From: Rhodococcus sp. IEGM 1379
GTDB lineage: Bacteria > Actinomycetota > Actinomycetes > Mycobacteriales > Mycobacteriaceae
Length of the DNA stretch: 64,000 nucleotides
Reading direction: 5' to 3'
Assembly: GCF_030056815.1 (NCBI RefSeq)
Contig: NZ_JASHKR010000003.1
Location: 62,001-126,000, forward strand
Below the pieces are notes generated by a model. That model was given only the letters and a program-made list of their open reading frames with translations. It did not search any database and was not told the DNA's origin. This document shows, in pieces, positions 30,409 to 56,265 of the stretch. The translations under genes were made by a program, and so were the position numbers. Within the stretch, counting starts at the first letter, position 1. Each line of letters begins with the position of its first letter.

Positions 30409-30436
30409 AAATTCCACGCTCTGTCCAGGAGGAACT

Positions 30437-37513: not shown

Positions 37514-37531
37514 GTAGCAAATGTTTGATAC
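37514..37531. promoter_or_regulatory. KstR2-like operator, site 1
   Basis: GTAGCAAATGTTTGATAC is an 18-bp near-palindrome (7 of 8 arm pairs). It is identical to the site at 54461-54478 and lies 218 bp before the dead transketolase gene. Confidence 0.7.
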
Positions 37532-37748
37532 ACCGGTTGGTGTTGGTGCCTGGATGACTTGTCGACAACAACGGGAGAACGAGCGGGCATGGCGGAGCGA
37601 GACCAAATCCCATCCCCGACACCGGGTGGGTAACTCCATCAGAAACAACGTTCATCAGGACTCCTGGCCAATTGTGCCGACGTCGTATGCATCGCGGCGC
37701 AGCAAGGACGACATCTTCAGCCGAACAAAGTACTCGAGGAAGGATCAC

Positions 37749-38646
37749 ATGACGACAACAATCGCAATCGAACCGCAGAACACTCGATTGGAACGGGACC
37801 GCGCCATCTCGGTCGCTGAGCTGGAGAACCGCGCGGACTGGCTCCGGATCGAAGTGATCCGAATGATCGACGGCGCCGGACTAGGCCACTATTCGAGCGT
37901 GTTCTCCTGCGCGGAGATCCTCTCGGTCCTCTACTACCAAGCACTGAGGCTCGACCCGGAAAATCCGGATTGGGCCGACCGCGACCGATTTCTGCTCGGC
38001 AAGGGACATGCCGATGTCGGTCTCTGGCCGATCCTGTGCGATCTCGGTTTCTTCGCACGCGAGGAATTGGAGCGCTTCGGCTACGTGGGGAGCCGGCTCG
38101 GTGACCACCCCGACCTGCGCAAGGCTCCCGGTGTCGACTTCAGTTCGGGCTCGTTGGGCCACAATCTGTCCGTTGGCCTCGGAATGGCGATGGCCGCCCG
38201 GCTGAGCGGTTCAGACCGTCGGACCCTTCGTACTCACCGGCGACGGTGAGATCCACGCAGGTCAGGTATGGGAGGCCGCCATGGCAGCCTCTCACTATCG
38301 ACTCGGGAACCCCGTGGCGATCGTCGACGCCAATGGGTACATCGGCAGCGGTCCTACTTCCGAGATGATGGGTATCGAACCGCTCGCCGCACGTTTCGAA
38401 GCATTCGGCTGGCACGTTGTCGAACTCGACGGACGCGACGTCGCGGCGCTTGTCGACACATTCTCCGCGCTGCCCTCCCCGAGTGGGGACCGGACCGATA
38501 TGCATCGTCGTCAGAACTCGGAAAGAGAAGGGCCTCGCGCTCATGGAGGAGGCCCCCGGGCGTGGCACGTCGGCTGCCTGACCCCAGAGCAGCGCGACGC
38601 GGCCATTTCCGAGATCACCACGCGTATGCAGGAGGCAACAGCATGA
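37749..38646 (+). pseudogene. Transketolase N-terminal subunit, frameshifted
   Basis: The ATG at 37749 opens a transketolase alpha-type subunit of a split enzyme: RIEVIRMIDGAGLGHYSS, GKGHADVGLWPIL and GSLGHNLSVGLGMA. At 38224-38226 an extra C shifts the frame, and the original frame stops at 38249, while the true sequence continues in another frame as FVLTGDGEIHAGQVWEAAM with the ThDP motif. A second shift occurs near 38480-38497 (then ICIVVRTRKEKGLALMEEAP) and a third near 38555-38560, after which AWHVGCLTPEQRDAAI finishes the subunit. Three lesions in 340 bp make a sequencing error or programmed frameshift unlikely. The end overlaps the next subunit by ATGA, as in a once-functional operon. 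Confidence 0.88.
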
Positions 38647-39293
38647 CCGCCACGACAAACAATCGAGCCGCCGCGATGGAGGACGTCTTCTCCGACGGAG
38701 GCCAGGCGTCGTCCCTCAACTTGCTCGGACATGCCCTGCCAGAGCTCGCCGACCGGCACCCTGATGTGGTCGTCCTCTCCGCAGATCTAGGCTCGTCCCT
38801 GACGGAACTGCGGGAACGGCACCCGAACCGGCACATCGAAATGGGTATCGCCGAAACCAACTCGATCTCGGCGGCGACGATGATGCCCGTAACCCTGGTG
38901 GCCCGGCTTTCCGGCCTTGCGATGAGCTACTTCGGCGCTAGCCACCACGCAGGCGTGGGAGCCGCCAAGCTACTCGAAGGGCTCGGGATCAACGCCGCCG
39001 TGCTCGACGCGGCCTACATCAAACCGCTCGACGAGGACACAATCTTGGATGCCGCCCGCACGACCGGCGCGATCCTGACGGTGTAGGAGCACAACGTAAT
39101 TGGGGGTCTGGGTTCCGCGGTGGCCGAAGCTCGGCCACCACGGCGCCTCCGCCACGGCGCCTCCGCCCGACTCGGGATCGTGGCACTACCAGACGAGGAT
39201 CTCGAAGTCGGCGTTCCTGCGGACCTACTTGCCCACTACGGCGTTACAGCCGAGGGCGTCACCCGGCAGGCATTGGCACTGCTGTCCAGATGA
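38643..39293 (+). pseudogene. Transketolase C-terminal subunit, deleted and truncated
   Basis: This begins as a transketolase beta-type subunit (LSADLGSSLTELRERHPNRH; IEMGIAETNSISAA), but about 40 residues are missing before LVARLSGLAMSYFGASHHA and about 90 before AAKLLEGLGINAAVLDAAYI. A TAG at 39084-39086 replaces the glutamate codon expected in the conserved V-E-E-H-N stretch. The remaining frame (EHNVIGGLGSAVAE, later LPDEDLEVGVPADLLAHYG) runs on to TGA at 39291-39293. A duplicated CCACGGCGCCTCCG near 39135-39165 scrambles part of it. The intact subunit would be about 310-330 residues. The gene is therefore dead. Confidence 0.88.
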
Positions 39294-39308
39294 CATCAGT
39301 AGTCGCGT

Positions 39309-39348
39309 GGAAGTTGGCCGTCTCACACTCGCGAGACGGCTAACTTCC
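39309..39348. terminator. Hairpin overlapping the ligase stop codon
   Basis: GGAAGTTGGCCGTCTC (39309-39324) pairs with 39333-39348 with one G-T pair around an 8-nt loop. The stop codon of the ligase gene (39325-39323) lies within the stem, so the last codons double as the terminator. Confidence 0.7.
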
Positions 39349-40942
39349 GCACCTCGCTCTTGGCGACTTTCCCACCGGGCCCAGTGGGAAGATCGTCGAC
39401 CAGGACAACATATTCCGGAATGTATTCGGTGGTAATTCCCTGCGCGCGCATCCATTCCGACAGCATCGCCATGGAGAGTTCGACACCGGATTCGGTGACC
39501 ACCACGGCGCACACCCGCTCCCCGAACACGTCGTCGAGCACCCCGACAACGGAAACAGCTCGAACTGACGGATGCGCGCAAATCAGATCTTCGACGTCGA
39601 CTGCGGAGATATTCTTACCTCCGCGGATGATGAGGTCGGCAATGCGTCCGACCACACGTATCCGGCCGGCGACATCGATATCGACGATGTCCCCAAGCAA
39701 CATCCATCCATCAGCGGTGTACAGCTCTGCGTTCGCGTCTTCGTCCTGCCAGTAGCCCAGCGATTCGAGCGGCCCGTGAACTGCAGGTTGTCCGCGCCGA
39801 GGCTCACTCTCACTGCCATTGTCATTGTCAGAGAGAATCCGCACGTTCATGGACTCGATGACATGTCCGCAGGTTTTCAACCGAGTCTCGTGGTCGTCAT
39901 CGAGAGTGGTCTGGCTGACAGCACCGGCTTCGTTCGAACCGTAGAACTGCAAAACCTTGGCACCCGTTCGCTCTTCGAATGCCAGCGCCTCGGAGTAGGG
40001 AACCGCTTCTCCACCGGTGTAGAGCACTCGAAGACTGGACAGGTCTGCTGTACGCACCCGTTCCGATCGAAGCAACATCTTGAATTGTGTACTGACACAA
40101 CATAGCACTGTGACTCGTTCACGCTCGATCAGATCTATCATCACCTCGACGTCGAACTTCTCCAGGACGACGGTGCGTGCACCGAGCAGGGTCGGCAGAA
40201 AATGTGCAGACCACAGCCCGAAGCCGAATGGCGCCGGCACTGCCGAGCAGAAGACATCGACATCGGTGATACGCGCACCCACCATCGCCAATCGAGCGAA
40301 CTCGATCCACTTCTTCTCGTTGTGTGCCACTACCTTCGGCAGTCCGGTGGTGCCCGAGGTCGAGTTCAGCAATGTGGTGTCGGACGTAGTGAACACTCCA
40401 GTACCGTCGGATGATTCGAGTGAGTTGACGCGCCTACGCACCTCCGTGCGATCGGCTGCACCCCACTCCACTGCCCCGTCGTCATCCACCACTATGACAC
40501 TGAGTACCTGTGCGCCGCTTCGCTGCAGATCATCGACTACGTCGTAACAGCTCCGCCCGCGGACCGTCGCAGTGGTGATCAGAACCCGACAGTCAGCCTT
40601 GATCATCAAGTGCGCGATCTCTCTTGTCCCGGAACGGAAACCGATCCCAGCAGCGACCCTGCCCGCTCGATAAGCGCCACACAATGCGGCATGCACCGCC
40701 ATGGTGTCGGGGAGGTAGATCGCCACGCCGGAACCGCCGACCGATTCAATACACGCTAGTGCGGCAGCGATTCGGTCGGCGGTCAGATCGTAGTCGCGCC
40801 AGGTGCAACTGCGGTCCGCGGTGACGAAGGCTACTACATCGGGCGTGTTCGCGGCGCGATGACGGACAACCTCGCTGATACTGATGTCCGAAAATGATTC
40901 AGGTTTGTCTGCGAACGCAATTCGACCCAACACCTTGGACAT
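39323..40942 (-). CDS. AMP-forming acyl-CoA synthetase
   Basis: The 539-residue adenylate-forming ligase has the P-loop NSTSGTTGLPKVVAHN (about residues 192-207), FYGSNEAGAVSQT (A5), GWMLLGDIVDIDVAGRIRVVGR (A7-A8, with IIRGGKNIS) and the final lysine in GPGGKVAKSEVRKL. The aspartate of the usual TGD motif is kept as LGD. The ATG at 40942 follows AGAGGGATTAG. It is the last gene of a minus-strand operon (44980 to 39323) with a dehydrogenase, a quinone-oxidoreductase-type enzyme, paired hydratases and an SDR, so it probably activates the acid entering this beta-oxidation-like set. Its specificity differs from the ligase at 2111, with which it shares only family motifs. Confidence 0.87.
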   Translation of the reverse strand: MSKVLGRIAFADKPESFSDISISEVVRHRAANTPDVVAFVTADRSCTWRDYDLTADRIAAALACIESVGGSGVAIYLPDTMAVHAALCGAYRAGRVAAGIGFRSGTREIAHLMIKADCRVLITTATVRGRSCYDVVDDLQRSGAQVLSVIVVDDDGAVEWGAADRTEVRRRVNSLESSDGTGVFTTSDTTLLNSTSGTTGLPKVVAHNEKKWIEFARLAMVGARITDVDVFCSAVPAPFGFGLWSAHFLPTLLGARTVVLEKFDVEVMIDLIERERVTVLCCVSTQFKMLLRSERVRTADLSSLRVLYTGGEAVPYSEALAFEERTGAKVLQFYGSNEAGAVSQTTLDDDHETRLKTCGHVIESMNVRILSDNDNGSESEPRRGQPAVHGPLESLGYWQDEDANAELYTADGWMLLGDIVDIDVAGRIRVVGRIADLIIRGGKNISAVDVEDLICAHPSVRAVSVVGVLDDVFGERVCAVVVTESGVELSMAMLSEWMRAQGITTEYIPEYVVLVDDLPTGPGGKVAKSEVRKLAVSRV

Positions 40943-40960
40943 CTAATCCCTCTGTTCCTG

Positions 40961-42160
40961 TCAGCGATACTTGCGGATCTCGGTCCGAGCGACACTGCGG
41001 ATATGAACTTCGTCCGGACCGTCGGCAATTCCCAAAATCCTGGCACTGGCCCACATCCGGGCGATGGGGAAATCTTCGGTGACTCCCCCGCCACCGTGGC
41101 ATTGGATGGACCGTTCGAGAACGGAGCGTGCCACTCGCGGCGCGATGACCTTGACCGCGGCAATTTCGATCGCGGCTTCCTTGACACCCATCTGATCGAT
41201 GATCCACGCGGTCTTGAGAACCAGCAGACGCGCCTGCTCGATCTCCATGCGGGACTCCGCAATCCACGTTCGTACAACACCTTGATCCGAAATCGGACCA
41301 CCGAAAGCGTCTCGCGACAACGTTCGTCGGACCATCAATTCCAGTCCACGTTCCGCCATTCCGATGCAACGCATCGCGTGATGGATTCGGCCCGGACCCA
41401 ACCGAGCTTGTGCGATGGCAAATCCTTCACCTTCCCCGGCGAGAATGTTGGTTACGGGCACTCGCACGTCCGTGAATGTAATTTCGCAGTGTCCATGCTG
41501 ATCGTGGTAACCGAAGATCGGTAGTGACCGAATGATCTCGACGCCCGGCGTGTTCACAGGTACCAGGACCATCGACTGCTGACGGTGGGGCGACGCGTCA
41601 GGGTCCGTCTTTCCCATCAAAACCAGGATCTCGCAACGTGGGTCGGCGGCGCCTGTTGTCCACCACTTGCGACCGTTGATGACGTAGTCGTCGCCGTCAC
41701 GAACGACGGAGGTGCTGATGTTTCGAGCATCTGACGACGCGACAGCCGGCTCGGTCATGGAGAACCCCGAACGCATACGGCCGTCCAGCAGTGGCTCGAG
41801 CCACTGCTCCTTCTGCTCGGGCGTGCCGAACATATGAAGGATTTCCATGTTGCCGGTATCAGGTGCCGCACAATTCAGCGCTTCCGGCGCGATGTAAGGC
41901 GACCGTCCGGTGATCTCAGCGATGTGCGCATAGTCGAGGTGTGAGAGCCCGGACAGCGAGGGTAGGAACAGATTCCACATCCCCTGACGCCGAGCCTCTG
42001 CCTTCAGTTCCTCGACCACAGGCGGTAACGTGTGATTACGCGGCCCCATCTCTTCCATCTGCTGCGCGTACACCGGCTCGGCCGGGTACACATGATCGAC
42101 CATGAACGCGTTCAAGCGGTCCATGATCTCCTGGGCTGCCGGGCTGGGAGCTAGGTCCAC
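40961..42160 (-). CDS. ACAD11-like acyl-CoA dehydrogenase
   Basis: The 399-residue flavoprotein strikingly resembles the dehydrogenase domain of mammalian ACAD11: WNLFLPSLSGLSHLDYAHIAE, APDTGNMEILHMFGTPEQK, SGFSMTEPAVASSDARNI, GRLGPGRIHH-type ARLGPGRIHHAMRCIG, and GPDEVHIRSVARTEIRKY at the end. In ACAD10/11 and in the bacterial levulinate enzyme LvaC this domain acts on phosphorylated 4-hydroxyacyl-CoA. A stand-alone kinase matching the other ACAD11 half lies at 52685. I use the GTG at 42160 because AGAGGA lies 8 bp before it; a GTG at 42184 is the alternative. It is 18 bp before the ligase gene in the same operon. Confidence 0.88.
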   Translation of the reverse strand: MDLAPSPAAQEIMDRLNAFMVDHVYPAEPVYAQQMEEMGPRNHTLPPVVEELKAEARRQGMWNLFLPSLSGLSHLDYAHIAEITGRSPYIAPEALNCAAPDTGNMEILHMFGTPEQKEQWLEPLLDGRMRSGFSMTEPAVASSDARNISTSVVRDGDDYVINGRKWWTTGAADPRCEILVLMGKTDPDASPHRQQSMVLVPVNTPGVEIIRSLPIFGYHDQHGHCEITFTDVRVPVTNILAGEGEGFAIAQARLGPGRIHHAMRCIGMAERGLELMVRRTLSRDAFGGPISDQGVVRTWIAESRMEIEQARLLVLKTAWIIDQMGVKEAAIEIAAVKVIAPRVARSVLERSIQCHGGGGVTEDFPIARMWASARILGIADGPDEVHIRSVARTEIRKYR

Positions 42161-42228
42161 GATAGAAATCCTCTCAGTTCTCACAATATGAATGCGTATG
42201 TATGCAAGGAAGATCGATTCCGAACCGA

Positions 42229-43197
42229 TCAGTCACGGACCAGAATCACCTTGCCGGCAGCCTGCCGGTTCATGACGATGTTCAGCGCTTCGGACGCGGC
42301 GTCGAACGGCAAGGTCCGAGACACGTGTGGCACCAACAGCCCATGCTCGTACCAGTCCAGCAACTGACGCATGTTGCTCGCATTCTCGGCCGGGTTCCGT
42401 TTTGCCCACGCTCCCCACAACACTCCGAGAAGTGAGGCCGAGGAGATGAGTAGACGGTTCATTCCCACTTTGGGAATGTCGCCACTCGCGTATCCGACGG
42501 TCAGGTACCGGCCGCCCCATTGGAGCGCCCTGATTGCAGCCTGCGCCGCGTCGCCGCCTACCGGGTCGTAGACGACGTCGATGCGTTCGCGTGTCTTCAG
42601 TTCGGATGCCAGGTCGCACTCTGCATAGTTGATCAGTGTCGACGCACCGTGCTCTTCGCACAGTGCCAACTTCTCCGCGGTAGATGCTGCGGCAATGACC
42701 TCGGCTCCCAATGCTCGACCGATCTCGACAGCGGTGAGCCCTACACCTCCAGCCGCACCGAGCACCAGAAGTCGCTCTCCGGCTGCAAGTCCCGCTCGAT
42801 CGACGAGGCCATGGTAGGAGGTTCCGTACGTCACGGAGAATCCTGCGGCGTCAGGGTAGGACATCGAACCGGGAATCGCGAAGACTTGTGACGCAGGAAC
42901 CGAGACCTGCTCGGCGTAACCGCCGATTCCACAGAACGCCAGGACACGAGTTCCCACGTTCAAACCTTCGACACCGTCTCCGACTGCCCGAATCACGCCA
43001 GCCACTTCGGACCCCGGAGTGAATGGCAGCGGCGGCTTGGTCTGGTAGTTTCCGGCAACCATCAGTCCGTCCGGGAAGTTGATGCCGCAAGCCCGGACAT
43101 CCACGATCACAGTTCCCGGTGCCGCCACCGGGTCGGGAACATCGGTGAGCCGGAGGACATCCGGCTCACCGAGGGTGTGACACTGGTGCGCCTTCAC
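42229..43197 (-). CDS. Quinone-oxidoreductase-type NADPH enzyme (zinc-free MDR)
   Basis: The 322-residue MDR protein matches NADPH:quinone oxidoreductases: RACGINFPDGLMVAGNYQ, FTPGSEVAGVI, GYAEQVSVPASQVF, and the cofactor loop GAAGGVGLTAVEIG (about residues 143-156). LWGAWAKRNP near the C-terminus is typical of actinobacterial members. The GTG at 43197 overlaps the TGA of the hydratase gene (GTGA), so it is coupled to it, and the long upstream frame is a shadow. No zinc site is present. In this operon it may reduce an enoyl or quinonoid intermediate rather than a quinone. It lies 68 bp upstream of the dehydrogenase gene. Confidence 0.85.
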   Translation of the reverse strand: MKAHQCHTLGEPDVLRLTDVPDPVAAPGTVIVDVRACGINFPDGLMVAGNYQTKPPLPFTPGSEVAGVIRAVGDGVEGLNVGTRVLAFCGIGGYAEQVSVPASQVFAIPGSMSYPDAAGFSVTYGTSYHGLVDRAGLAAGERLLVLGAAGGVGLTAVEIGRALGAEVIAAASTAEKLALCEEHGASTLINYAECDLASELKTRERIDVVYDPVGGDAAQAAIRALQWGGRYLTVGYASGDIPKVGMNRLLISSASLLGVLWGAWAKRNPAENASNMRQLLDWYEHGLLVPHVSRTLPFDAASEALNIVMNRQAAGKVILVRD

Positions 43198-43625
43198 ACC
43201 GACACCACACCGGGAGCGGTGACGAAGGTTGCCCACACCCGCACAGCGACGCCGCCGGTCTGGCGTGCGCACTCCAGTTCCACATCCACCTTGTTCTCCG
43301 TGTTGTCCTGATACTCCTTGACAACTTTTCCGGTACACGTCAGGACATCGCCCGGCCACACTTGTTCGAGGAACCGGATGCGGAAAGAACGTACGTTCTC
43401 GGCGCCGAGCCAGTCCGTCGCGTAGGTGCCCAGCACTCCGGCCTGGAACATTCCCACCGAGAACGGACTCTCGAATCCCGCCGCCCTGGCGAAGGTCTCA
43501 TCATGATGAATCGGATTCATATCGCCCGACGCACCTTGGTAGCGCACGAAGTCCGTGCGGGTAACCGGTCCGATCGTCCACGGTGACGGTGCGGTGATCG
43601 CCGCGGGCTGTGCTGTCAGGGTCAT
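43194..43625 (-). CDS. MaoC-like dehydratase, C-terminal partner
   Basis: The 143-residue hot-dog protein has the hydratase 2 motif in DFVRYQGASGDMNPIHHDETFARAAGF, with the catalytic Asp and His. The rest (SFRIRFLEQVWPGDVLTCTGKVV) completes the fold. Its start overlaps the preceding stop by four bases (43622-43625). With the neighbouring small hydratase it forms the heterodimeric enoyl-CoA hydratase seen in steroid catabolism (the ChsH1-ChsH2 type), in which one subunit carries the catalytic residues. It hydrates a 2-enoyl-CoA. The catalytic residues are visible in this subunit. Confidence 0.86.
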   Translation of the reverse strand: MTLTAQPAAITAPSPWTIGPVTRTDFVRYQGASGDMNPIHHDETFARAAGFESPFSVGMFQAGVLGTYATDWLGAENVRSFRIRFLEQVWPGDVLTCTGKVVKEYQDNTENKVDVELECARQTGGVAVRVWATFVTAPGVVSV

Positions 43626-44071
43626 GATTCCTCCGACGGTGCTCGTCCGGTCTCGACGCCGGTCATCTTTGCCTGCGCAACCAAAGTCCCGTTCTCGTCC
43701 ACGAAATCGGTGACCATGACTGCGAAGGTCATCTCACCACCTCGTCGACCTTCCTTGGTGAAGACATCGGTGATACGCGAGCGGGCCTCGAGTTTGGTTC
43801 CCGCACGCGGCGGCGGCCCGAAGAAGGTGTACTCCTGTTCAGCATGCAGTCCACGCTGCTGATTCAGTTCGACTGCGCTCCAAGGGTTCTGATCGCCGGA
43901 CTGCCAGAAGAACGTGGTGGTCAGGAAGGTCGGCGGACTTACTGGGTTTTCCGAGTCGAGGTACTCAGGATTAGTACTGCGGATCGCGTGGGCAAATTCG
44001 CGAACCTTTCCTCGTTCCACGTCGAGACGGAACGGTGTCCCCGTAACACCCACGGCATCTTTGTTTGCCAT
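43622..44071 (-). CDS. MaoC-like dehydratase, N-terminal (FAS1-type) partner
   Basis: The 149-residue hot-dog protein resembles FAS1-like dehydratase domains: GTPFRLDVERGKVREFAHAI, SPPTFLTTTFFW and GLHAEQEYTFFGPPPRAGTKL. It has no D-x-x-H hydratase motif, so it is the non-catalytic partner of the next gene, with which it is coupled by ATGA. GGAGTG precedes the ATG at 44071. Such pairs form tunnel-shaped active sites that accept bulky ring-containing acyl-CoA esters. That suits a polycyclic or alicyclic substrate here, although straight-chain substrates cannot be excluded. The SDR gene lies 33 bp upstream. Confidence 0.84.
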   Translation of the reverse strand: MANKDAVGVTGTPFRLDVERGKVREFAHAIRSTNPEYLDSENPVSPPTFLTTTFFWQSGDQNPWSAVELNQQRGLHAEQEYTFFGPPPRAGTKLEARSRITDVFTKEGRRGGEMTFAVMVTDFVDENGTLVAQAKMTGVETGRAPSEES

Positions 44072-44104
44072 AGCTCACTCCGAGTTTCGTTGTCGTAAGG
44101 AAAA

Positions 44105-44980
44105 TTACGCGAATGTCTTCATTTCCGTTGCCAACTCTTCGAGCGTCCAGCGCGCATCCTTGACGATGCTCTTGCCGTACGACCAACCGAGGAACTGCTT
44201 GATCTCGCCGCCCTTGGCGTAGAAGACCGAGCCGGTGGTGTCGCAGTCGGCGGTGAGCAGGTGAGCGACCACTGGAGACACGTTGCCCGGGTGGTAGACG
44301 TCGAAATCGTTCGGATCCGCCGGGACCGCCACCATCTCGGCGATTCCGGGAACGTTCTCTGTCATCCGAGTGCGTGCGACCGGGGTAATGGCATTAACGC
44401 GCACTCCGTAGCGGCCGATTTCCTGCGCCAAAATCACAGTGAGCGCCGCAATCCCAGCTTTGGCGGCGCCGTAGTTACTCTGGCCGACTGCACCGAGAAG
44501 CCCCGACGTGGACGAGACGTTCACGATGGATGCTGCCACGGCGTCGCCGGCTTTGGAACGATCACGCCAGTGCGCGCCGAACACGCGGCAGGGAGCAAAC
44601 GTCGCGCGAAGCTGACCCGCGATCACGGTGTCCCATTCTTCTTCACTCATGTTCACGAACATCCGGTCGCGGAGAACACCCGCATTGTTGACCAGTCCGT
44701 GAACTGCGCCGAAGTTCCCTACTGCCAGATCGAGAAGCGCCTGAGCTCCCGCAACAGTGGTGACGTCCGCAGTACTCGCGATTGCGCTGCCACCGAGAGC
44801 TGTGATCTCGGCAGCGACGGCTGAGGCCAAGGCGTCATCCGTTCCCGAACCGTCGGCGGCGGCACCGGTGTCGTTGACTACGACGTGCGCGCCTTCCGCG
44901 GCAGCCAGGAGCGCGTGTTCGCGGCCGATTCCACGGCCGGCTCCGGTGACGACAACAACACGACCTTCAAGTTGATTCAT
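44105..44980 (-). CDS. SDR, MFE-2-type 3-hydroxyacyl-CoA dehydrogenase
   Basis: The 291-residue SDR looks like the dehydrogenase unit of multifunctional enzyme type 2: TGAGRGIGREHALLAAAEGAHVVVND, LVNNAGVLRDRMFVNMSEEEWD, NVSSTSGLLGAVGQSNYGAAK (catalytic Ser, Tyr, Lys) and a C-terminal extension (FYAKGGEIKQFLGWS) peculiar to MFE-2-like proteins. It should oxidise the 3-hydroxyacyl-CoA made by the paired hydratase encoded next. It is the first gene of the six-gene minus-strand operon. A degenerate operator half-site lies upstream at 45002. Confidence 0.87.
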   Translation of the reverse strand: MNQLEGRVVVVTGAGRGIGREHALLAAAEGAHVVVNDTGAAADGSGTDDALASAVAAEITALGGSAIASTADVTTVAGAQALLDLAVGNFGAVHGLVNNAGVLRDRMFVNMSEEEWDTVIAGQLRATFAPCRVFGAHWRDRSKAGDAVAASIVNVSSTSGLLGAVGQSNYGAAKAGIAALTVILAQEIGRYGVRVNAITPVARTRMTENVPGIAEMVAVPADPNDFDVYHPGNVSPVVAHLLTADCDTTGSVFYAKGGEIKQFLGWSYGKSIVKDARWTLEELATEMKTFA

Positions 44981-45001
44981 CCAAGTCCCTTTCGAATACG
45001 T

Positions 45002-45019
45002 GTATCAAACATGTCAAGC
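45002..45019. promoter_or_regulatory. Degenerate KstR2-like operator, site 2
   Basis: GTATCAAACATGTCAAGC keeps the first 11 bases of the reverse-complement consensus (GTATCAAACAT) and then diverges. It lies 22 bp before the SDR start and overlaps the end of the IpdC-like gene. Lower confidence because one arm is lost. Confidence 0.4.
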
Positions 45020-46860: not shown

Positions 46861-47723
46861 GCCGACACCGCCTGGGAATCGCGCAGCGCGACAGCGCGTT
46901 GGTAGTCCGCTTCGCTACCGGAAAGGTACTCGCCGACAAAGGCTTTCCACTGTTGTGGATCGCGGGCGGCGGCCGCATATTCCCGCTGGAAGGATTCGTC
47001 GCGTTCGTAGTTCGGCACGCACGAGGTGAAATGTGCGCCGTTCGGTGCCTCGATCACACCGGAGACCAGCAGACGGGCGATCCGCAGCGTCGACGGATGA
47101 GCATCGGCTGTCAAGGCCTTGGTGGGCACGATTTCCTCGCACGACACATAGGCATCCTCGGCTGCCATGCAGAACAGATCGTCGAAATACAGATCAGGGC
47201 CCAAGAATTGGGCATTGCCATGCATGTCTGCACGGTTCATGTGCACCAGTGCCGCATCGAGATTCAAGGCGGGCATCGCTGCAAAAATCTCGTCTCCGTA
47301 CGGGTCGGATACGGTACGCATATCGGGGTTGACCGTCATGACGTCCGATCCCAGTCCAGCTCGGGTCGGCAAGAAGGGCATCCGGATACCGGCAGCGTAC
47401 AGACCCCACTGCAACATTCCCTCGTCGTACTCTGCCACCTCTACCGCACCCGCCTGCCGGATGGCCCGGAAGTGCGGATCGAGCGCGATCGAGTCCAACG
47501 AAACGAACCCGAAAATCACCTTCTTGACTTTCCCTGCTGCACAGAGCAATCCGACGTCCGGACCACCGTAGGACACGATGGTCAGATCCTTCAGGTCGGA
47601 TCGAAGAATTGCACGCACGAGGGACATCGGCTTGCGCCGTGACCCCCAACCACCGATACCGATCGTCATACCGGACCTCAGGCGACGTACGACATCGTCC
47701 TCGGTCATCGTCTTGTCACTCAA
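46857..47723 (-). CDS. IpdA-like CoA-transferase-family hydrolase, alpha subunit
   Basis: The 288-residue protein matches IpdA (Rv3551): LRSGMTIGIGGWGSRRKPM at the N-terminus, SYGGPDVGLLCAAGKVKKV, FGFVSLDS, and YLSGSEADYQRAV near the C-terminus. The acidic EYDEGML stretch (Glu near 101) lies where I believe IpdA enzymes keep their catalytic glutamate. I use the TTG at 47723, which aligns with Rv3551 and is 8 bp from AAAGGG; a GTG at 47732 is an alternative. It heads an operon with the IpdB- and IpdC-like genes, with an operator at 47777. Family members hydrolyse ring-ketone CoA esters. Confidence 0.88.
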   Translation of the reverse strand: MSDKTMTEDDVVRRLRSGMTIGIGGWGSRRKPMSLVRAILRSDLKDLTIVSYGGPDVGLLCAAGKVKKVIFGFVSLDSIALDPHFRAIRQAGAVEVAEYDEGMLQWGLYAAGIRMPFLPTRAGLGSDVMTVNPDMRTVSDPYGDEIFAAMPALNLDAALVHMNRADMHGNAQFLGPDLYFDDLFCMAAEDAYVSCEEIVPTKALTADAHPSTLRIARLLVSGVIEAPNGAHFTSCVPNYERDESFQREYAAAARDPQQWKAFVGEYLSGSEADYQRAVALRDSQAVSA

Positions 47724-47776
47724 TGGGTCCACCCTTTCGAATTCGGGGAAACGTTGCTCTGCCGCGTCTCAGTCGC

Positions 47777-47794
47777 GTAGCAAACGTTTGATTC
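47777..47794. promoter_or_regulatory. KstR2-like operator, site 3 (ipdABC-like operon)
   Basis: GTAGCAAACGTTTGATTC matches the consensus in 16 of 18 positions and lies 54 bp before the IpdA-like start. The CAAACGTTTG core is a perfect 10-bp palindrome. Confidence 0.7.
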
Positions 47795-47800
47795 ACATCA

Positions 47801-48655
47801 TCATGCTTTCATCTCCGCGTCAACCGCCAACTGCGCGGTGAGCCAGGAATACGCTCGCCCGAGCGCACTCTCCGGCCCTTCCTCCTCAATCGCAGGACCG
47901 AGAATCTCCAGCTCAACGGCACCGCGGTAGCCGAGACCGAGCACTTCACGCAACAATCGATCCATCGGAAGATCTCCGTCGCCTGGTACCCACCGATTGG
48001 GAACCGAGAGCGTTCCTACCCGAAAATCACTTACCTGCACGATCTGCACCCGTCCGAGTTCGCGGCGCAAAGTACCGAGCAGATCCGACTCTTGGAATGC
48101 GCAGTAGAGATCGACGACCATTCCGATGTCCAGGCGCCGTGCGATAACCGCAGCATCGCGAACTGTATGAACGAAACTCAGATCCGAACGCATCTGCATC
48201 GTGTTCTCCAGGGATAGCCGAACCCCCAACTGTTTGGCCCGCTCGGCCACCGGCGACACACGATCGATCAGTCGATCTGCCGCATCTTCCCAGCTGTGAC
48301 GTCCGGACGGCCCCGTTGTGAACAGCACCGTCGGTGCTCCCAGACCTGCCGCGCCGACAACTGCTGCGTCGAGTGCCGCAATCTCGCTCTCCCAGGCAGT
48401 TCCATCGTCCGGATCGGCTGTGATTCCGTGCGCGATACAGGCGACCGCGACGCCGAACTCACGGGCCAGCGATACGGTTTCCGGCCAACCGGTTCGAACC
48501 GCTTTGTACGCGGACAAAGTCACCGTGGAAATTCCGACGCGCCGACAGAGCGCCAACTCGTCACGCAATGCCCAACTTGCGGTCGTAATCAGGCTGACGG
48601 AAGGAAACGGGCCTCGCACCGGGTCCATCTGGCGGGATATGTCATTGTGATCCAT
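47801..48655 (-). CDS. Sugar-phosphate isomerase/epimerase-like TIM-barrel protein
   Basis: The 284-residue protein belongs to the xylose-isomerase-like/AP endonuclease 2 TIM-barrel group: TVTLSAYKAVRTGWPETVSLA, GVRLSLENTMQM (Glu metal ligand), MVVDLYCAFQESD, VQVSDFRVG and GYRGAVELEILGP. Members isomerise or epimerise sugars and sugar-like acids with a divalent metal. AGGAGC precedes the ATG at 48655. It is divergent from the arylsulfatase at 48776 with a shared operator between. Its stop is 69 bp from the IpdA-like GTG, so it may also be read through into that operon. The role in the pathway is not clear. Confidence 0.75.
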   Translation of the reverse strand: MDHNDISRQMDPVRGPFPSVSLITTASWALRDELALCRRVGISTVTLSAYKAVRTGWPETVSLAREFGVAVACIAHGITADPDDGTAWESEIAALDAAVVGAAGLGAPTVLFTTGPSGRHSWEDAADRLIDRVSPVAERAKQLGVRLSLENTMQMRSDLSFVHTVRDAAVIARRLDIGMVVDLYCAFQESDLLGTLRRELGRVQIVQVSDFRVGTLSVPNRWVPGDGDLPMDRLLREVLGLGYRGAVELEILGPAIEEEGPESALGRAYSWLTAQLAVDAEMKA

Positions 48656-48717
48656 AGTCGCTCCTGCTTTCCTCGATTAACCGTGAAACACACCGTAATC
48701 CCAATGTGGAACATTGC

Positions 48718-48735
48718 GTAGCAAATGCTTGATAC
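48718..48735. promoter_or_regulatory. KstR2-like operator, site 4 (isomerase/sulfatase)
   Basis: GTAGCAAATGCTTGATAC differs from the sites at 37514 and 54461 at one base. It lies in the gap between the divergent isomerase and sulfatase genes and can control both. Confidence 0.72.
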
Positions 48736-48775
48736 GGTGCGTACGGCCTTCAGAATCCATTCCAGGAGTGCACAT

Positions 48776-51025
48776 ATGAACGTCGATACCTGCACGAGCA
48801 CCTCGGGTTCACAGCGCCGCGAACCCAGCGAATCCGATGCACCGAAATGGCCGGTTCCCGTGTCGGCGCCCGCAAGCGCGCCGAATGTTCTCGTGATCAT
48901 GACCGATGACGTCGGTTACGGGGCAAGCAGCACTTTCGGTGGACCGATTCCCACTCCGGCGCTCGACGGACTCGCCGAAACCGGTCTGCGTTACACGCAG
49001 TTTCATACAACTGCGATGTGTTCTCCGACCCGCGCGGCACTCATGACCGGTCGCAACCACCACAAGGTCGGTGCAGGGCGCGTCACCGAGATGGCACTTG
49101 CCTACGACGGATACACCAGTATCATCCCCGACAGCGCTGCCACGGTTGCCGAAATGCTGCGGTGCAACGGATATTCCACCGCACAGTTCGGTAAGTACCA
49201 CAATGTCCCCGTGTACGAGACCGGGCCGGCCGGACCGTTCGACCATTGGCCCACAAACATGGGATTCCAACATTTCTACGGCTACCTCGGCGGCAGCACC
49301 GACAATTGGGCCCCGGCACTGTACGAGGGCACCAGTCCGGTGGAACCACCTACGGACGATGCCACCTACCACCTCGAAAATGACCTGGCAAACAAGGCAA
49401 TTACCTGGATTCGTCGACAGAAGTCGGCTGCACCGAACAAGCCCGTCTACATCCAGTACAGCAATGCCGCTACCCACGCACCGCACCACGCACCGCGGGA
49501 TTGGATCGACCGATTCCGCGGTCAGTTCGATCAGGGCTGGGATGCCATACGCGAGGAAACGATCGCTCGACAGAAGCAACTCGGTGTTATACCCGCAGAC
49601 ACCGAACTGACCGAACGCCCCGAACAGATCGCATCGTGGGACTCCCTCACCGCCGACCATCAAAAAGTGGCGGCCCGCATGATGGAGGTCTACGCTGGCG
49701 CTCTCGCTTACGCCGACTCCCAGATAGGCCGTGTACTCGAAGAATTGGAACGCATCGGTGAACTCGACAACACGCTGGTCTTCTACATCCAGGGCGACAA
49801 CGGAGCCAGTCCCGAAGGTGGAGCCAACGGCTCTCTCAACGAGATGAGTTACGTCAACCGTATGGAAGACAGCATCGAATCACTCCTCGAGCACCTCGAC
49901 GAACTCGGCGGCCCGCTGCACTACAACCACTTTCCGGCCGGTTGGGCACACGCGACGGATACCCCGTTCAAGTGGTTCAAGATGGTCGCGTCGCATTTCG
50001 GGGGCACGCGCAACGGAATGGTGCTCTCGCACGCTGCGCGTATCACGGACGCCGGCGGGATCCGCACGCAATTCCATCACGTCATCGACGTCGTTCCCAC
50101 TATCCTCGAGGTCATCGGAATAGAAGCGCCCAAACAGATTCGGGGCGCAGAACAGATGCCGCTGTGCGGAGTCCCAATGGCCTACACCTTCGATGACCCG
50201 GCTGCACCTTCGACCCGAACGACACAATATTTCGAATTGATGGGCAACCTCGCAATCTATTCCGAAGGGTGGGTTGCCGCTACTACGCCCCGGGAAATGC
50301 CGTGGGAATTCGCCACCGGCGCAGACTCTCTCGACGATGTGAACTGGGAGTTGTATCACGTCGAGAACGACTACAGCCAGTCCGACGATCTGTCGGCGCA
50401 GTACCCCGACAAACTCGGCGCGCTGGTCGATCTGTTCTGGGAAGAGGCCGAAGCCAACCAGGTTCTTCCCGTTATCGTCAAGGCACTCAATCCTGGACCA
50501 CCCAAACCCAATCCGACTTTCGGCCTGGCCACATTCGTCTACTACGACGGGGTGACGCGAGTGACCCCTGGTAGTGCGCCCGATGTCACCAACAAGCCGT
50601 TCAGCATTACCGCGGACGTAGTGTTGACTTCGAACCACGCAGACGGCATGCTCCTCTCCCAAGGTGGTCGATTCGGTGGCCATGCTCTGTATTTGGCAAA
50701 CGGTGTCCTTACCTATCACTACAACCTTTTGGGCCGCGAGCGCTCCACGGTCACTTCCGAATTCGCTCTTCCTGCCGGACGGCACCAACTCGTGGCCGTG
50801 GTCGACATCGACCCCACGCAGCGCGGCGGATCCGCAGCGGTCACCCTGCTCTGCGATGACGAGAAGGTCGGATCCGGAACGGTGGCGAATACCGCCCCAT
50901 TCCGCCTCAACTACATCGAAGGCCTGAGCGTCGGCCGCGACACCGGAACCCCGGTGTCCGAGCAATACCAGCTGCCGTTCGCATTCGACGGAGTACTCGA
51001 CAAAGTCACCGTCACGCTTGACTGA
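48776..51025 (+). CDS. Type I arylsulfatase (third copy)
   Basis: The 749-residue sulfatase has CSPTR at Cys82, the metal-binding MTDDVGYG near residue 42, FGKYHNVP, and SNAATHAPHH. The C-terminal beta domain (GGRFGGHALYLANGVLTYHYN) matches the copy at 21573. AGGAG precedes the ATG at 48776. It starts a plus-strand series with a binding lipoprotein, a kinase and the KstR2-like regulator, under the operator at 48718. This placement links sulfate-ester cleavage to the CoA-dependent pathway encoded around it. No signal peptide is visible, so the substrate is probably imported intact. Confidence 0.9.
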   Translation: MNVDTCTSTSGSQRREPSESDAPKWPVPVSAPASAPNVLVIMTDDVGYGASSTFGGPIPTPALDGLAETGLRYTQFHTTAMCSPTRAALMTGRNHHKVGAGRVTEMALAYDGYTSIIPDSAATVAEMLRCNGYSTAQFGKYHNVPVYETGPAGPFDHWPTNMGFQHFYGYLGGSTDNWAPALYEGTSPVEPPTDDATYHLENDLANKAITWIRRQKSAAPNKPVYIQYSNAATHAPHHAPRDWIDRFRGQFDQGWDAIREETIARQKQLGVIPADTELTERPEQIASWDSLTADHQKVAARMMEVYAGALAYADSQIGRVLEELERIGELDNTLVFYIQGDNGASPEGGANGSLNEMSYVNRMEDSIESLLEHLDELGGPLHYNHFPAGWAHATDTPFKWFKMVASHFGGTRNGMVLSHAARITDAGGIRTQFHHVIDVVPTILEVIGIEAPKQIRGAEQMPLCGVPMAYTFDDPAAPSTRTTQYFELMGNLAIYSEGWVAATTPREMPWEFATGADSLDDVNWELYHVENDYSQSDDLSAQYPDKLGALVDLFWEEAEANQVLPVIVKALNPGPPKPNPTFGLATFVYYDGVTRVTPGSAPDVTNKPFSITADVVLTSNHADGMLLSQGGRFGGHALYLANGVLTYHYNLLGRERSTVTSEFALPAGRHQLVAVVDIDPTQRGGSAAVTLLCDDEKVGSGTVANTAPFRLNYIEGLSVGRDTGTPVSEQYQLPFAFDGVLDKVTVTLD

Positions 51026-51084
51026 AAACACACGTACCGCTGATCGACAACATTCCTTCGAGCGCGATCGAAAAGAGGCAAACC

Positions 51085-52659
51085 ATGACACACACCCGGT
51101 TCGGCAAGGGAAAGCTCGTCACTGCTCTTGCCGTGGCAGCGCTGTCACTTTCCGCCTGTGGCGGAGGCGCAAGCGGTACGACGAACAGTGGAAGCACCGG
51201 CGGTGAGGTCGACCCCGCTGCAGTGATACGGATTGCCTCCGCCGGTACGTCCAACAATCTCGACCCCCAGCAACAGATGACCATCGGCGGCTGGAGTCAC
51301 CTCACTGCACTCTTCGATCGACTCATGACCGTCGACAGCAACGACAAAATTGTTCCCGGACTTGCCAAATCGTGGGAATTCAGCTCGGACGGCAAGTATC
51401 TGGAGCTGAAGCTGCGTGACGACGTCACCTTCAACGACGGAACCCGCTTCGATGCCGAGGCGGTTGCCGCCACCCTGAAACGAGGCAAAACACTCGCAGG
51501 CAGTACCTCGGCTGCGGCGCTCGCCGGCGTCATCGATATCACTGCACCTGACATGTACACCGCGCGCATCGAACTGGCGCCGGGAGCCGGTGTCGAACTA
51601 CCCGGAGTATTCACCACTCCGGTAGGCATGATGATCAGTCCCGCCGTGATCGCCGCCGGCACCGATATCCGCAACGATCCGGGACTTGCAGGTTCCGGCG
51701 CCTACGTCGTCACCAAATACGTTCCCGGAGAGTCGCTTATATTGAAGCGGTCCGATCGTCCGTACTGGGACGCGGAGGGCGGACGTCTCGGCGGCATCGA
51801 CATCACTCTTGTCCCAGACGCGTCGACGCGACTGAACGCCATCCAAACCGGAGCACTGGATCTCACGTGGGTCAGTTCGGCCAGCGAAGTGGTGCAGGCA
51901 AATACGCTTGCCGACCGCGGCGCCTTCGCTATCGACAAAGTTCCGTTCCGAAGCACCCTCGGTGTCTATCTGCGTCCGACGGGTCAGCTGGCCGATCAAG
52001 AAATACGTCAAGCGGTTGCACAGTCGATCAATCCGGATGAGATCAATGCACTGTTCTCCGGGAACTGCACACCACACAACCAGATGTTCCCGAAGACGAG
52101 CTCGGCATTCGATCCCGACTACAAGTATCCGTACGCCTTCGATCCGGAGGCGGCTAAGGCATTGGTCCAGAAGAACGGAAACACCAAGATCACGCTAACG
52201 TTCGGTGCCGGTAGCAACACCGAAAAGCCCGCCAACGTCATCCAGTCTGCCCTGTCCACTTCGGGCTTCGATGCCGAGCTCAATCCCGTTCCGCTCAACC
52301 AGCTCGAACCACGCTACATTGCCGGTGAATTCGATCAGATGGTCGCCAACTCGTTCACACCCAAAGTCGATCCTGCGGAAACCGTGAACTTCTACTTGGT
52401 CAACAACTTCAAGTTCGCTGCCGACGACCCGGAAATCCTGGGCATGATCAAGCAGGCTGCCGATCCGACGATGTCCGAGAACGACCGTGCCGAGCTGTAC
52501 CACAAGATCTCGGCGAAGACGCTGGAGAAGGCTCTGTGGGTCCCGATCTGCAACCAGACCAACGCCACGCTCTCGAGCAACAAAGTGGTCGGCGCCGACG
52601 ACGTCCCGTGGGTCAACGTCGGAATCTACGATCTTCGCCATCTTGCGATGACAAAGTAG
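51085..52659 (+). CDS. ABC transporter substrate-binding lipoprotein (family 5)
   Basis: The 524-residue protein has a lipoprotein signal peptide with the lipobox LSAC (lipid-modified Cys25) followed by a Gly/Ser/Thr linker, then an SBP_bac_5 domain of the DppA/OppA type: SWEFSSDGKYLELKLRDDVTFNDGTRFDAE is the family signature region. The C-terminus (LWVPICNQTNATLSSNKVVG) is typical. The ATG follows AAAGAGGC. It lies between the sulfatase and the ACAD11-type kinase genes. The only permease/ATPase set in the window lies at 58930-62691, so this is probably one of its two binding proteins. Family members bind peptides, but also oligosaccharides and acidic solutes. Confidence 0.88.
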   Translation: MTHTRFGKGKLVTALAVAALSLSACGGGASGTTNSGSTGGEVDPAAVIRIASAGTSNNLDPQQQMTIGGWSHLTALFDRLMTVDSNDKIVPGLAKSWEFSSDGKYLELKLRDDVTFNDGTRFDAEAVAATLKRGKTLAGSTSAAALAGVIDITAPDMYTARIELAPGAGVELPGVFTTPVGMMISPAVIAAGTDIRNDPGLAGSGAYVVTKYVPGESLILKRSDRPYWDAEGGRLGGIDITLVPDASTRLNAIQTGALDLTWVSSASEVVQANTLADRGAFAIDKVPFRSTLGVYLRPTGQLADQEIRQAVAQSINPDEINALFSGNCTPHNQMFPKTSSAFDPDYKYPYAFDPEAAKALVQKNGNTKITLTFGAGSNTEKPANVIQSALSTSGFDAELNPVPLNQLEPRYIAGEFDQMVANSFTPKVDPAETVNFYLVNNFKFAADDPEILGMIKQAADPTMSENDRAELYHKISAKTLEKALWVPICNQTNATLSSNKVVGADDVPWVNVGIYDLRHLAMTK

Positions 52660-52684
52660 GCCTACGCATGAACAAGGACCGCAC

Positions 52685-53743
52685 ATGACCGATAGATCCA
52701 CTGCTACTGGAACCACTGCCACGCTCGGTATCGACCATCTCGCGGTCACCGCCTGGCTCGAGCGCGCAGTCCCGAATGCTCTCGCTCCGTTCACCTTCGA
52801 ACAAATAGCCGGTGGCCGTTCGAATCTGACGTACCTGGTCACCGACGCCGAGGGTACTCGTTGGGTACTCCGGCGACCCCCGTTGGGAAAGATCGTGGCC
52901 ACCGCCCACGACGTCGTCCGTGAGGCAGGCATCATGTCGCGACTCTCAGGTACCGGCGTTGCGGTTCCAACGGTCGTCGGGGTCTGTACTGACCTCGAGG
53001 TCAACGGATCTCCATTCTTCGTCATGGAATTCCTGGATGGAGAAATCCTGCGGGACTCGGACGCTGTGGAGGCCTTCCTCCCTCTCACAGAACGCCGCGC
53101 ACTTGGCGATTCGCTCGTCGACACTCTCGCGCGCCTGCACTCGTTGGACCCCGCGGCTCACGGTTGGTCGCAGCGCTCGGCATCGGGAGGCTATGTCGAA
53201 CGGCAACTCTCACGCTGGTCCGCCAGCTGGGAAGGAGATCGTGTGCGAGTCCTCGAGGACATCAGTCGCGCCCGTGACGCATTGAGTCGTCGGATCCCAC
53301 CCCAATTGCGCTCGAGCGTCGTACACGGCGACTATCGCCTCGACAACGCTCTGATGGGTACACAGGGCCAGGTGCTCGGAGTGCTCGACTGGGAACTGTC
53401 GACAGTCGGTGACCCATTGGCGGACCTGGGGCAGTTCTTGATGTACTGGGCGCAACCTGGCGACGAGGTAACCGCGCTCGAGACGCCCCCGACGTTCGCG
53501 GCCGGTCTACCCACCCGAGACGAACTGGCTGAACGCTATCTGACTGCGACCGGATTGCCTGGCGACGACTTGGAGTACTACCTGGCATTCAACTGGTGGA
53601 AAACGGCCTGCATCGTCGAAGGCGTCTACACCCGGGTATCTCGCGGATCGATGGGCCGTACAGACCGCACCCCCGAATCGTTCGGCGTCCAGGCACAGCG
53701 TCTGGCTGCACAGGCCTGGTCGCGCGCACAGAACCTCGCGTGA
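52685..53743 (+). CDS. ACAD10/11-type kinase domain protein (APH fold, LvaA-like)
   Basis: The 352-residue protein has the aminoglycoside phosphotransferase fold and closely resembles the N-terminal half of ACAD11: FEQIAGGRSNLTYLVT (ATP loop), VLRRPPLGKI, GSPFFVMEFLDGEILRD, VVHGDYRLDNALMG (catalytic loop), VLDWELSTVGDPLADLG (metal Asp) and GVYTRVSRGSMG. In ACAD10/11 and LvaA this domain phosphorylates the 4-hydroxyl of 4-hydroxyacyl-CoA. The matching dehydrogenase half is at 40961, so the pair looks like a split enzyme. The ATG is 25 bp after the lipoprotein gene. Despite the fold, drug resistance is not suggested. Confidence 0.85.
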   Translation: MTDRSTATGTTATLGIDHLAVTAWLERAVPNALAPFTFEQIAGGRSNLTYLVTDAEGTRWVLRRPPLGKIVATAHDVVREAGIMSRLSGTGVAVPTVVGVCTDLEVNGSPFFVMEFLDGEILRDSDAVEAFLPLTERRALGDSLVDTLARLHSLDPAAHGWSQRSASGGYVERQLSRWSASWEGDRVRVLEDISRARDALSRRIPPQLRSSVVHGDYRLDNALMGTQGQVLGVLDWELSTVGDPLADLGQFLMYWAQPGDEVTALETPPTFAAGLPTRDELAERYLTATGLPGDDLEYYLAFNWWKTACIVEGVYTRVSRGSMGRTDRTPESFGVQAQRLAAQAWSRAQNLA

Positions 53744-53772
53744 AACGCCGCGGCGCCCTTTTCGCCGGGCGC

Positions 53773-53790
53773 GCATCAAACCTTTGTTCA
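53773..53790. promoter_or_regulatory. Degenerate KstR2-like operator, site 5 (regulator gene)
   Basis: GCATCAAACCTTTGTTCA matches the reverse-complement consensus at 13 of 18 positions. It lies 51 bp before the TetR start and would allow weak autoregulation. Confidence 0.4.
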
Positions 53791-53840
53791 ACTGTCGTAG
53801 AATTCGCGACGCGATCCTTGCACAAACATCGGAGGTAGGC

Positions 53841-54419
53841 ATGGAGTGGTCTGAGCGCCACGACCTGATTCTCGGGCAGGCAGCATCACTGTTTGCCACC
53901 AAGGGAATCGCAGGCACCCCGGTGCGGGATATTGCCGACGGAGTCGGCATCCTCTCCGGCAGCCTTTATCACTACTTCGAATCCAAGGATGCAATCGCGT
54001 ACATGATCGTGTCGAGGTATCTCGACGATCTGACTGCTCGATACGAAGCGATTACCGACGCCGATCCGCGGGATCGGCTTACCTCGATCGTTCACGCCTC
54101 GCTGGCCGCAAGCGTTGCGCACCCACATGCCTCGGAGATCTATCAGAACAATTCCGAGTATCTTCGAAAACTTCCCGGGAACAACACTATTCGTTCCGCT
54201 GCCCGCACCACCAAGGCAACGTGGATGGATGCGATCGCCTCCGGAATCGAAGCCGGACAGCTACGCGCGGATCTACCCGCAGACGTGATCTACGGATTGA
54301 TGCGCGACGCGGTCTGGTTGTCGCTGCGGTGGTTCACCCCCACCAAGAACTATTCGATCGAACAGTTCGGCGATACCTTGATCTCGGTCTTCCTCGAAGG
54401 CATCGAACCACAAGAATGA
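53841..54419 (+). CDS. KstR2-like TetR-family regulator
   Basis: The 192-residue repressor resembles KstR2 (Rv3557c), the regulator of steroid C/D-ring catabolism: VRDIADGVGILSGSLYHYFESKDA is nearly the KstR2 recognition region, and the C-terminal EIYQNNSEYLRKL and DAVWLSLRWFTPTKNYSIEQFGD follow it too. KstR2 responds to a ring-containing CoA ester, and IpdABC belongs to its regulon. The same pairing here suggests that this protein binds the GTAGCAAAYRTTTGATAC sites. GGAGG lies before the ATG at 53841; the longer frame to 53784 is unlikely. The ligand is inferred to be an acyl-CoA pathway intermediate. Confidence 0.85.
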   Translation: MEWSERHDLILGQAASLFATKGIAGTPVRDIADGVGILSGSLYHYFESKDAIAYMIVSRYLDDLTARYEAITDADPRDRLTSIVHASLAASVAHPHASEIYQNNSEYLRKLPGNNTIRSAARTTKATWMDAIASGIEAGQLRADLPADVIYGLMRDAVWLSLRWFTPTKNYSIEQFGDTLISVFLEGIEPQE

Positions 54420-54460
54420 CCGACCCCGCACAGTTCACACCACCGACTACATTCTCCTAC

Positions 54461-54478
54461 GTAGCAAATGTTTGATAC
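54461..54478. promoter_or_regulatory. KstR2-like operator, site 6
   Basis: GTAGCAAATGTTTGATAC, identical to site 1, lies 18 bp before the SDR start and 41 bp after the regulator stop. It probably controls the SDR-SDR-lipoprotein series. Confidence 0.75.
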
Positions 54479-56099: not shown

Positions 56100-56265
56100 G
56101 TACCCGACTGGATTCATCCAGAGCACCAAATCATTAGGGCTGCAAAGAAATACACATCTCCCGGTGAACGGGAAGATGAAACGACCGCCACGCACACCGC
56201 GCACTACGGTCATCACAGAACTTCGCCATCCGGACGCATTCGCGTCACCTCTGGAAGGAACTCTC

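Follow-up and report, generated by a model that had tools for sequence, protein, structure and literature searches.

A 64,000-nucleotide stretch of the Rhodococcus sp. IEGM 1379 genome (contig NZ_JASHKR010000003.1, positions 62,001 to 126,000; hereafter the window) encodes a TetR-family protein related to KstR2, whose gene starts at 53841, together with a second ipdABC-type operon (ipdABC2) and four copies of an 18-bp near-palindromic sequence, GTAGCAAAYGTTTGATRC, in promoter positions. The sites, their co-occurrence with the regulator's clade, that clade itself and the adjacency of the genes can be read directly from the sequence, and taken together they make it very probable that regulator, operator and genes are linked in a dedicated regulon of a KstR2 paralogue.

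An initial annotation of the window had reported four strong sites, and matches to the 18-bp sequence were indeed found at 37514, 47777, 48718 and 54461, with 0, 2, 1 and 0 mismatches, respectively. Chance would provide 0.02 matches per window, and four were reached in none of 100 dinucleotide shuffles of it. When the whole genome (6,136,602 bases in 230 contigs) was scanned at up to three mismatches, the same four sites were the only ones returned, while a reversed control pattern gave no match genome-wide at this threshold. Many equally good matches elsewhere, which the initial annotation had named as a finding that would count against a regulon, were thus looked for and do not occur. The shuffles and the genome-wide uniqueness rule out a chance origin of the strong sites, and the presence of four copies in the genome rules out a genome-wide repeat. 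Four copies of the core CAAANNTTTG are present in the window (37518, 47781, 53777 and 54465) against 0.34 expected. The operator is an imperfect palindrome with a conserved asymmetry, position 4 being G in 97% and position 15 being A in 90%. The promoter positions previously assigned to the sites also proved right: the strong ones precede the transketolase-like gene, ipdA2, the divergent isomerase/sulfatase pair and the SDR gene at 54497, and weak ones precede the SDR1/MaoC operon and tetR. Listed open reading frame (ORF) starts at 37521 and 48725 overlap the sites at 37514 and 48718, but these starts are mechanical, the likely ones being 37749 and 48776.

The protein encoded at 53841 had been credited with a KstR2-like recognition helix, which is confirmed by its reading ILSGSLYHYF against ILSGSLYHHF in KstR2; in a phmmer search against solved structures, its best matches were the KstR2 entries 4w1u and 4w97 (7.5e-38 and 8.4e-38). 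The kinship with KstR2 therefore stands at the level of the family, but the protein is a paralogue and not KstR2 itself. The genome holds four KstR2-family genes, namely the window gene and those on contigs C115 (44%), C74 (36%) and C87 (33%), followed by a gap to 8e-12. Because the C87 gene encodes the KstR2 helix and has a FadD3-type ligase gene some 2 kb away (707 bits against a cut-off of 657, NF005801), we take it as the true KstR2, and since this presumed KstR2 is a separate gene, the 53841 protein would be its paralogue. The 48 fetched proteins were placed in a tree whose root and order of deep, long branches are unsure. Four groups each lie on one side of a strongly supported branch: the window clade (15 proteins), KstR2 (12), the C115 type (12) and the C74 type (5); four further rows fall into no group. 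The window and KstR2 clades separate with support of 100/99 and 100/100. The RDxxW motif (KstR2 162-166) is present in all 15 window-clade proteins. At the place of the published KstR2-3 signature, [ED][DE][RM]N[RK][QE]QRK, the window protein reads RSAARTTKA, as counted on the alignment; a Rhodococcus KstR2 (L008) also departs from this signature, which is therefore uninformative. Among plasmid records, only more distant relatives were found (10 records, the first-ranked at 43.8%).

Evidence for a link between regulator and operator comes from their distribution across 401 genomes of the family. The window clade, at 59% or above, is present in 15 of the 401, and among 27 congeners the window regulator itself occurs at 98-99% only in G016 and G022; a 49% relative in G105 falls in the C115 clade, and this genome is without an operator site. 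At up to two mismatches, GTAGCAAAYGTTTGATRC was found in 35 genomes, comprising every one of the 15 clade genomes and 20 of the 386 that lack the clade, whereas at up to one mismatch it was found in all 15 and in a single one of the 386 others (G293). Fisher's test gives 2e-26 for this co-occurrence, with genomes treated as independent and their relatedness ignored. The pattern had been widened (Y, R) after the relatives' sites were seen, and the figure of 15 of 15 is thus partly a product of construction, while that of 1 of 386 is not.

The placement of the sites in related genomes points the same way. Regions fetched around the 15 clade TetR genes, together with three further stretches (one of them without a site), contain 55 sites at up to three mismatches, and each has the start of a window-gene homologue no more than 221 bp away; none falls inside such a homologue, these being the only genes considered. 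The single-regulon reading put forward in the initial annotation is strongly supported by this adjacency and by the co-occurrence with the TetR clade. The genes marked in this way are homologues of ipdA2, SDR1, the isomerase, the APH kinase, tetR, SDR2, the sulfatase and the transketolase, and once (G022) TPP1 alone. Three sulfatase rows overlap their own site by 11 bp owing to a mechanical ORF start, and the transketolase matches in relatives are valid as gene places, their percentages being meaningless and their gaps perhaps a few bases off. A site precedes ipdA2 in each of the 14 clade genomes with this gene, transketolase also in G016, G114, G150 and G051, and SDR2 also in G016, G022 and G114. 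In G114, contig C66 carries ipdA2 and two sites beside it while tetR lies on C24 with four, one of them before transketolase, and in G051 a distance of 27 kb separates the transketolase sites from tetR, implying that the operator follows the genes and not just their neighbourhood. The genes had been described as previously unlinked, which does not hold: most form one cluster, though members are distant in these two genomes.

The degenerate forms at 53773 and 45002 fared less evenly, in that their letters are real and their positions are partly backed by relatives, but their scores lie within noise. With a scoring matrix built from the 55 sites (including the four strong window sites, whose scores are partly circular as a result), the strong sites score 33-37 bits, compared with 7.3 bits for 53773 and 2.1 bits for 45002; in 30 random sequences of window length (64 kb) from a first-order Markov model, the maxima average 6.6 bits and reach 17.1 bits, so neither weak site stands alone. 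In 10 of the 12 clade genomes from other genera, the tetR promoter carries a CAAA-N2-TTTG site at 1-3 mismatches and a like distance, and in the window and two near relatives the weak 53773 form is found there. Given the sites at the same promoter in these ten genomes, 53773 is a probable weakened operator. SDR1 is preceded by a site at up to three mismatches in G180, G207, G036 and G067; no such site was found at the other SDR1 promoters compared, those of the window and two near relatives having a half-site only.

The operator core had been likened to the CAAG-N2-CTTG core of KstR2, and the comparison is apt. The KstR2 operator is AnCAAGnnCTTGnT (PMC3068626), and the window operator shares its 14-bp frame, AnCAA-NN-TTGnT, but has A where KstR2 has G as the fourth base of the half-site. 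Within the window clade CAAA-N2-TTTG stands in place of the KstR2 operator: a CAAA core lies near the gene in 13 of 15 cases, no core in one (L141) and a CAAG core in one (L142), where the nearest core, CAAGACCTTG, is taken as chance and a clear CAAA site is found 1.26 kb upstream. Outside the clade, CAAGCGCTTG was found near the gene for 27 of 33 proteins, no core for six, and CAAA-N2-TTTG for none. The C115 paralogue (L017, 14212-14769) and the C74 paralogue (L018, 8938-9495) each have a CAAGCGCTTG site nearby, and the C115 cluster contains ABC-transporter-like genes as well as a ligase sharing 58% identity with that of the window.

These distributions bear on whether the sites could belong to another KstR2-family paralogue (C115, C74 or the true KstR2), with the 53841 protein targeting something else. 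Such paralogues are present in the same genome and nearly share its recognition helix, but we consider this very unlikely: among 21 congeners that have another KstR2-family gene (E<=1e-30) and lack the window clade, 20 have no site at up to two mismatches and G026 has one at two, and CAAGCGCTTG is the sequence that 27 of the 33 such fetched genes adjoin. Assignment of the sites to the true KstR2 was rejected, its gene being elsewhere and its operator class different. As the recognition helix is nearly unchanged, the switch between A and G is probably read elsewhere in the protein. Five of the first 75 alignment columns fully separate the clades: four fall in the N-terminal part and helix 1, one of which is mostly gapped in proteins from outside the clade, and the fifth follows the helix-turn-helix. 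Helix 2 begins with K, P or S in window-clade proteins; in the other proteins T predominates at this position, but S and P are also seen. The clade-separating residues are correlated with the clade and are no proof of cause.

The surroundings of the 55 sites were also informative regarding the mode of control. A TANNNT box starting 2-7 bp past the GATRC half accompanies 19 of the 55, compared with 0-3 in nine later search windows, one directly beside the other half and up to four farther out on that side; a -35/-10 arrangement with TTGATA as the -35 box was found at one site of 55. A site covering the stretch before the -10 box suggests repression by occlusion at those promoters, where the operator abuts the box (about one-third of sites) and a bound repressor would block RNA polymerase. 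The box would also fit a motif that is a shared promoter element or small repeat and no regulator site, but the four copies in the genome, the tight tie to the TetR clade and the near-palindromic KstR2 frame make this extremely unlikely. Some TetR-family proteins are activators, and the 53841 protein could be imagined to activate its targets instead of repressing them. This is highly improbable given the position of the operator just upstream of a -10-like box at one-third of sites and the description of KstR2 as a repressor (PMC3068626).

Both subunits encoded by ipdABC2 strongly resemble the solved chains of IpdAB, the COCHEA-CoA hydrolase. IpdB2 keeps glycine at beta position 57 (as counted on the aligned chain), where the transferase has glutamate, and this replacement in the beta subunit is a feature of IpdAB (PMC5380842). 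A second genomic ipdA on C124, 61% identical to ipdA2 and with an SDR1 relative nearby, is taken as the canonical copy; compared with the second genomic copy, the window genes are 60% (ipdA2), 54% (ipdB2, over 168 residues to the contig end) and 50% (SDR1) identical. A second ipdA copy at 55-61% is present in all 15 clade genomes, and both copies in 14. Exact CAAG or CAAA cores were found at none of the 15 loci of this copy, which are short, with the operon start perhaps farther upstream; among them is a near-match, CAAGCGATTG, at L181:2207. Copies of ipdA2 at 75% or above (401 genomes, E<=1e-118) occur in 16 genomes, 14 of them with the TetR gene and two without it, and copies at 63-66% occur in 12 further genomes. 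In G051 (L153, 18071-18538), a reading frame of 155 aa lies between ipdA2 and the isomerase gene, with two tandem operators before it.

The resemblance between the two copies raises the possibility that the cluster simply duplicates the canonical HIP (steroid C/D ring) pathway, with HIP-CoA as the effector here too. The identities of ipdA2, ipdB2 and SDR1 favor this, as does the slow support of steroid growth by R. equi IpdA2B2 once ipdAB has been deleted (PMC3161971). Nonetheless, regulator and operator are separate from those of KstR2, the window ligase is not FadD3, the cluster includes an ACAD11-type pair, a sulfatase, an isomerase and a transketolase that are absent from the part of the KstR2 regulon table consulted, and the R. 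equi set, a second set in that species, is dispensable for growth on androstenedione (PMC3161971). We therefore regard this explanation as unlikely, though less so than those considered above, and retain a dedicated paralogue regulon as the preferred reading. R. equi has been called "fairly unique" in having a second ipdAB set (PMC5380842).

Several observations weigh against a dedicated regulon, or against parts of it. Both genomes with ipdA2 at 75% and no TetR clade member (G044 and G069) are also without an operator site, and G067 has the TetR gene without ipdA2. The sulfatase, solute-binding protein and transketolase genes are less constant members than ipdABC2. The site before tetR is weak in this species, and two g14 genomes have no site directly before tetR, implying that autoregulation is not universal. 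The -10-like box is missing beside 36 of the 55 sites. Finally, the recognition helix is almost the same as in the CAAG-type clades despite the operator change.

Features of the proposed regulon in the window
Feature	Coordinates	Strand	Remarks
Operator 1 (GTAGCAAATGTTTGATAC, perfect)	37514..37531	+	before transketolase-like pseudogene
Transketolase-like pseudogene	37749..39086	+	at least one frameshift, near 38220
Acyl-CoA ligase	39323..40942	-	not FadD3: NF005801 213 bits vs cut-off 657
Acyl-CoA dehydrogenase, ACAD11 type	40961..42184	-	ACAD11 closest, 2.8e-134
Quinone/enoyl reductase (MDR)	42229..43359	-	true start probably downstream of listed GTG
MaoC-like hydratase 2	43194..43625	-	
MaoC-like hydratase 1	43622..44071	-	FAS1_DH_region
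SDR1	44105..44980	-	50% identical to SDR near second ipdA on C124
Weak half-site	45002..45019	-	before SDR1/MaoC operon; one good half kept
ipdC2, FabK/NMO-like FMN reductase	45014..46087	-	
ipdB2, IpdB-like beta subunit	46084..46860	-	6co6, 5.8e-71; DGEA glycine where glutaconate CoA-transferase has Glu
ipdA2, IpdA-like alpha subunit	46857..47732	-	PDB 6co6 chain A, 1.9e-103
Operator 2	47777..47794	+	before ipdABC2 operon (- strand)
Xylose-isomerase-like TIM barrel	47801..48655	-	
Operator 3	48718..48735	+	between divergent isomerase-like gene and sulfatase
Type I sulfatase	48776..51025	+	listed start 48725 inside operator
SBP family 5 solute-binding protein	51085..52659	+	
APH-fold kinase	52685..53743	+	ACAD11 kinase domain 5.7e-36; best match 3dxp, 3.4e-50
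Weak operator-like site, core CAAACCTTTG	53773..53790	-	before tetR
TetR-family regulator, presumed KstR2 paralogue	53841..54419	+	domains TetR_N + TetR_C_24
Operator 4 (perfect)	54461..54478	+	18 bp before SDR2
SDR2	54497..55288	+	
SDR3	55323..56099	+	
Second SBP family 5 protein	56164..57873	+	regulon membership uncertain

The operator of the transketolase-like pseudogene is still perfect, and the corresponding place is occupied by an open frame of 623 aa in G016 and by two genes in G114. Elsewhere in the window there are further type I sulfatases at 18016-20532 and 21573-24023, making three with that at 48776-51025, and three TauD-family dioxygenases (20441-21514, 25270-26091 and 30347-31510); this concentration in 64 kb suggests sulfate-ester use. 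A thiamine pyrophosphate (TPP) enzyme is encoded at 31771-33519 (NF004807, 824 bits against a cut-off of 607), and the regions fetched from G016, G022, G051, G101, G114 and G252 contain relatives at 75-95%. Regarding the kinase and dehydrogenase of the cluster, ACAD10/11 phosphorylate 4-hydroxyacyl-CoA en route to 2-enoyl-CoA, and their counterparts in bacteria are LvaA/LvaC (PMC12440821).

Based on the data presented above, we infer binding, repression, an effector, a pathway order and a substrate as follows. The 53841 protein would be a KstR2-family repressor that binds GTAGCAAAYGTTTGATRC as a dimer and, in most relatives at least, also controls the gene encoding it. Its regulon would comprise ipdABC2, the genes for SDR1, MaoC, the quinone/enoyl reductase, the acyl-CoA dehydrogenase and the ligase, the isomerase/sulfatase pair with a transporter subunit and the APH kinase, SDR2-SDR3, and transketolase where it is intact. 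Release would most likely be brought about by a CoA thioester of the pathway, by analogy with HIP-CoA for KstR2. The sulfatase suggests a sulfated parent compound, and together with the solute-binding proteins, the transketolase and the ACAD11-type pair it points to a route in which a cyclic alcohol sulfate would be taken up and desulfated, a cyclic keto acid most likely activated with CoA, the ring opened by an IpdAB-type hydrolase, and a 4-hydroxyacyl-CoA passed to beta-oxidation via the kinase and dehydrogenase pair. A sulfated cyclic compound is offered only tentatively as the substrate class. Somewhat more plausible, though still short of an even chance, is the broader proposal that the change from CAAG to CAAA in each half-site insulates the paralogue and the ipdABC unit from three sister regulators while the recognition helix remains almost unchanged (the N-terminal MEWSxRH and the first helix 2 residue being candidates), and that the unit governs a hitherto undescribed route for degrading a sulfated cyclic terpenoid or steroid-like compound, including a 4-hydroxyacyl-CoA kinase step.

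The literature searched contained no account of this operator or of a regulator for a second ipdAB, and a query with the core GCAAATGTTTG and Rhodococcus returned no papers. A second ipdAB system thus gains a candidate regulator, an operator and a gene list, the last of which points to sulfated cyclic compounds as the substrate class. The second set of R. equi has been known since 2011 with its primary role open, and its control becomes testable if it is orthologous. More generally, parallel regulons of one repressor family may arise within a genome through a single operator base.

Compared with the KstR2 regulon (PMC3068626, PMC5380842), the window system shares a TetR-family regulator with a near-identical recognition helix and RDxxW motif, the 14-bp operator frame, and a proposed set of targets that includes an ipdABC-type operon and an SDR. 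It differs in that the regulator belongs to a separate clade, the fourth operator base is A and not G, and a presumed KstR2 gene lies elsewhere in the genome; the ligase and acyl-CoA dehydrogenase are also different from those of the KstR2 regulon as available in these sources, and the APH kinase, sulfatase, isomerase and transketolase are added. Like the window genes, ipdA2B2 of R. equi, which are likened to them by description only, form a second ipdAB set located away from the steroid cluster, for which the available text of PMC3161971 describes no regulator or site. The R. equi set is reportedly not clustered with an echA20 paralogue, and the window proteins scanned included no crotonase. 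KstR3 of Mycolicibacterium neoaurum is likewise a further TetR-type repressor in sterol metabolism; it is set apart, by description only, by its place in the atf1-chsH4-chsE6 operon for side-chain cleavage (PMC10398937). The combination of an APH-type kinase with an ACAD11-type dehydrogenase resembles ACAD10/ACAD11 and, by description only, LvaA/LvaC (PMC12440821, PMC11342911), but in contrast with ACAD11, the window kinase and dehydrogenase are two genes situated inside a putative ring-degradation regulon.

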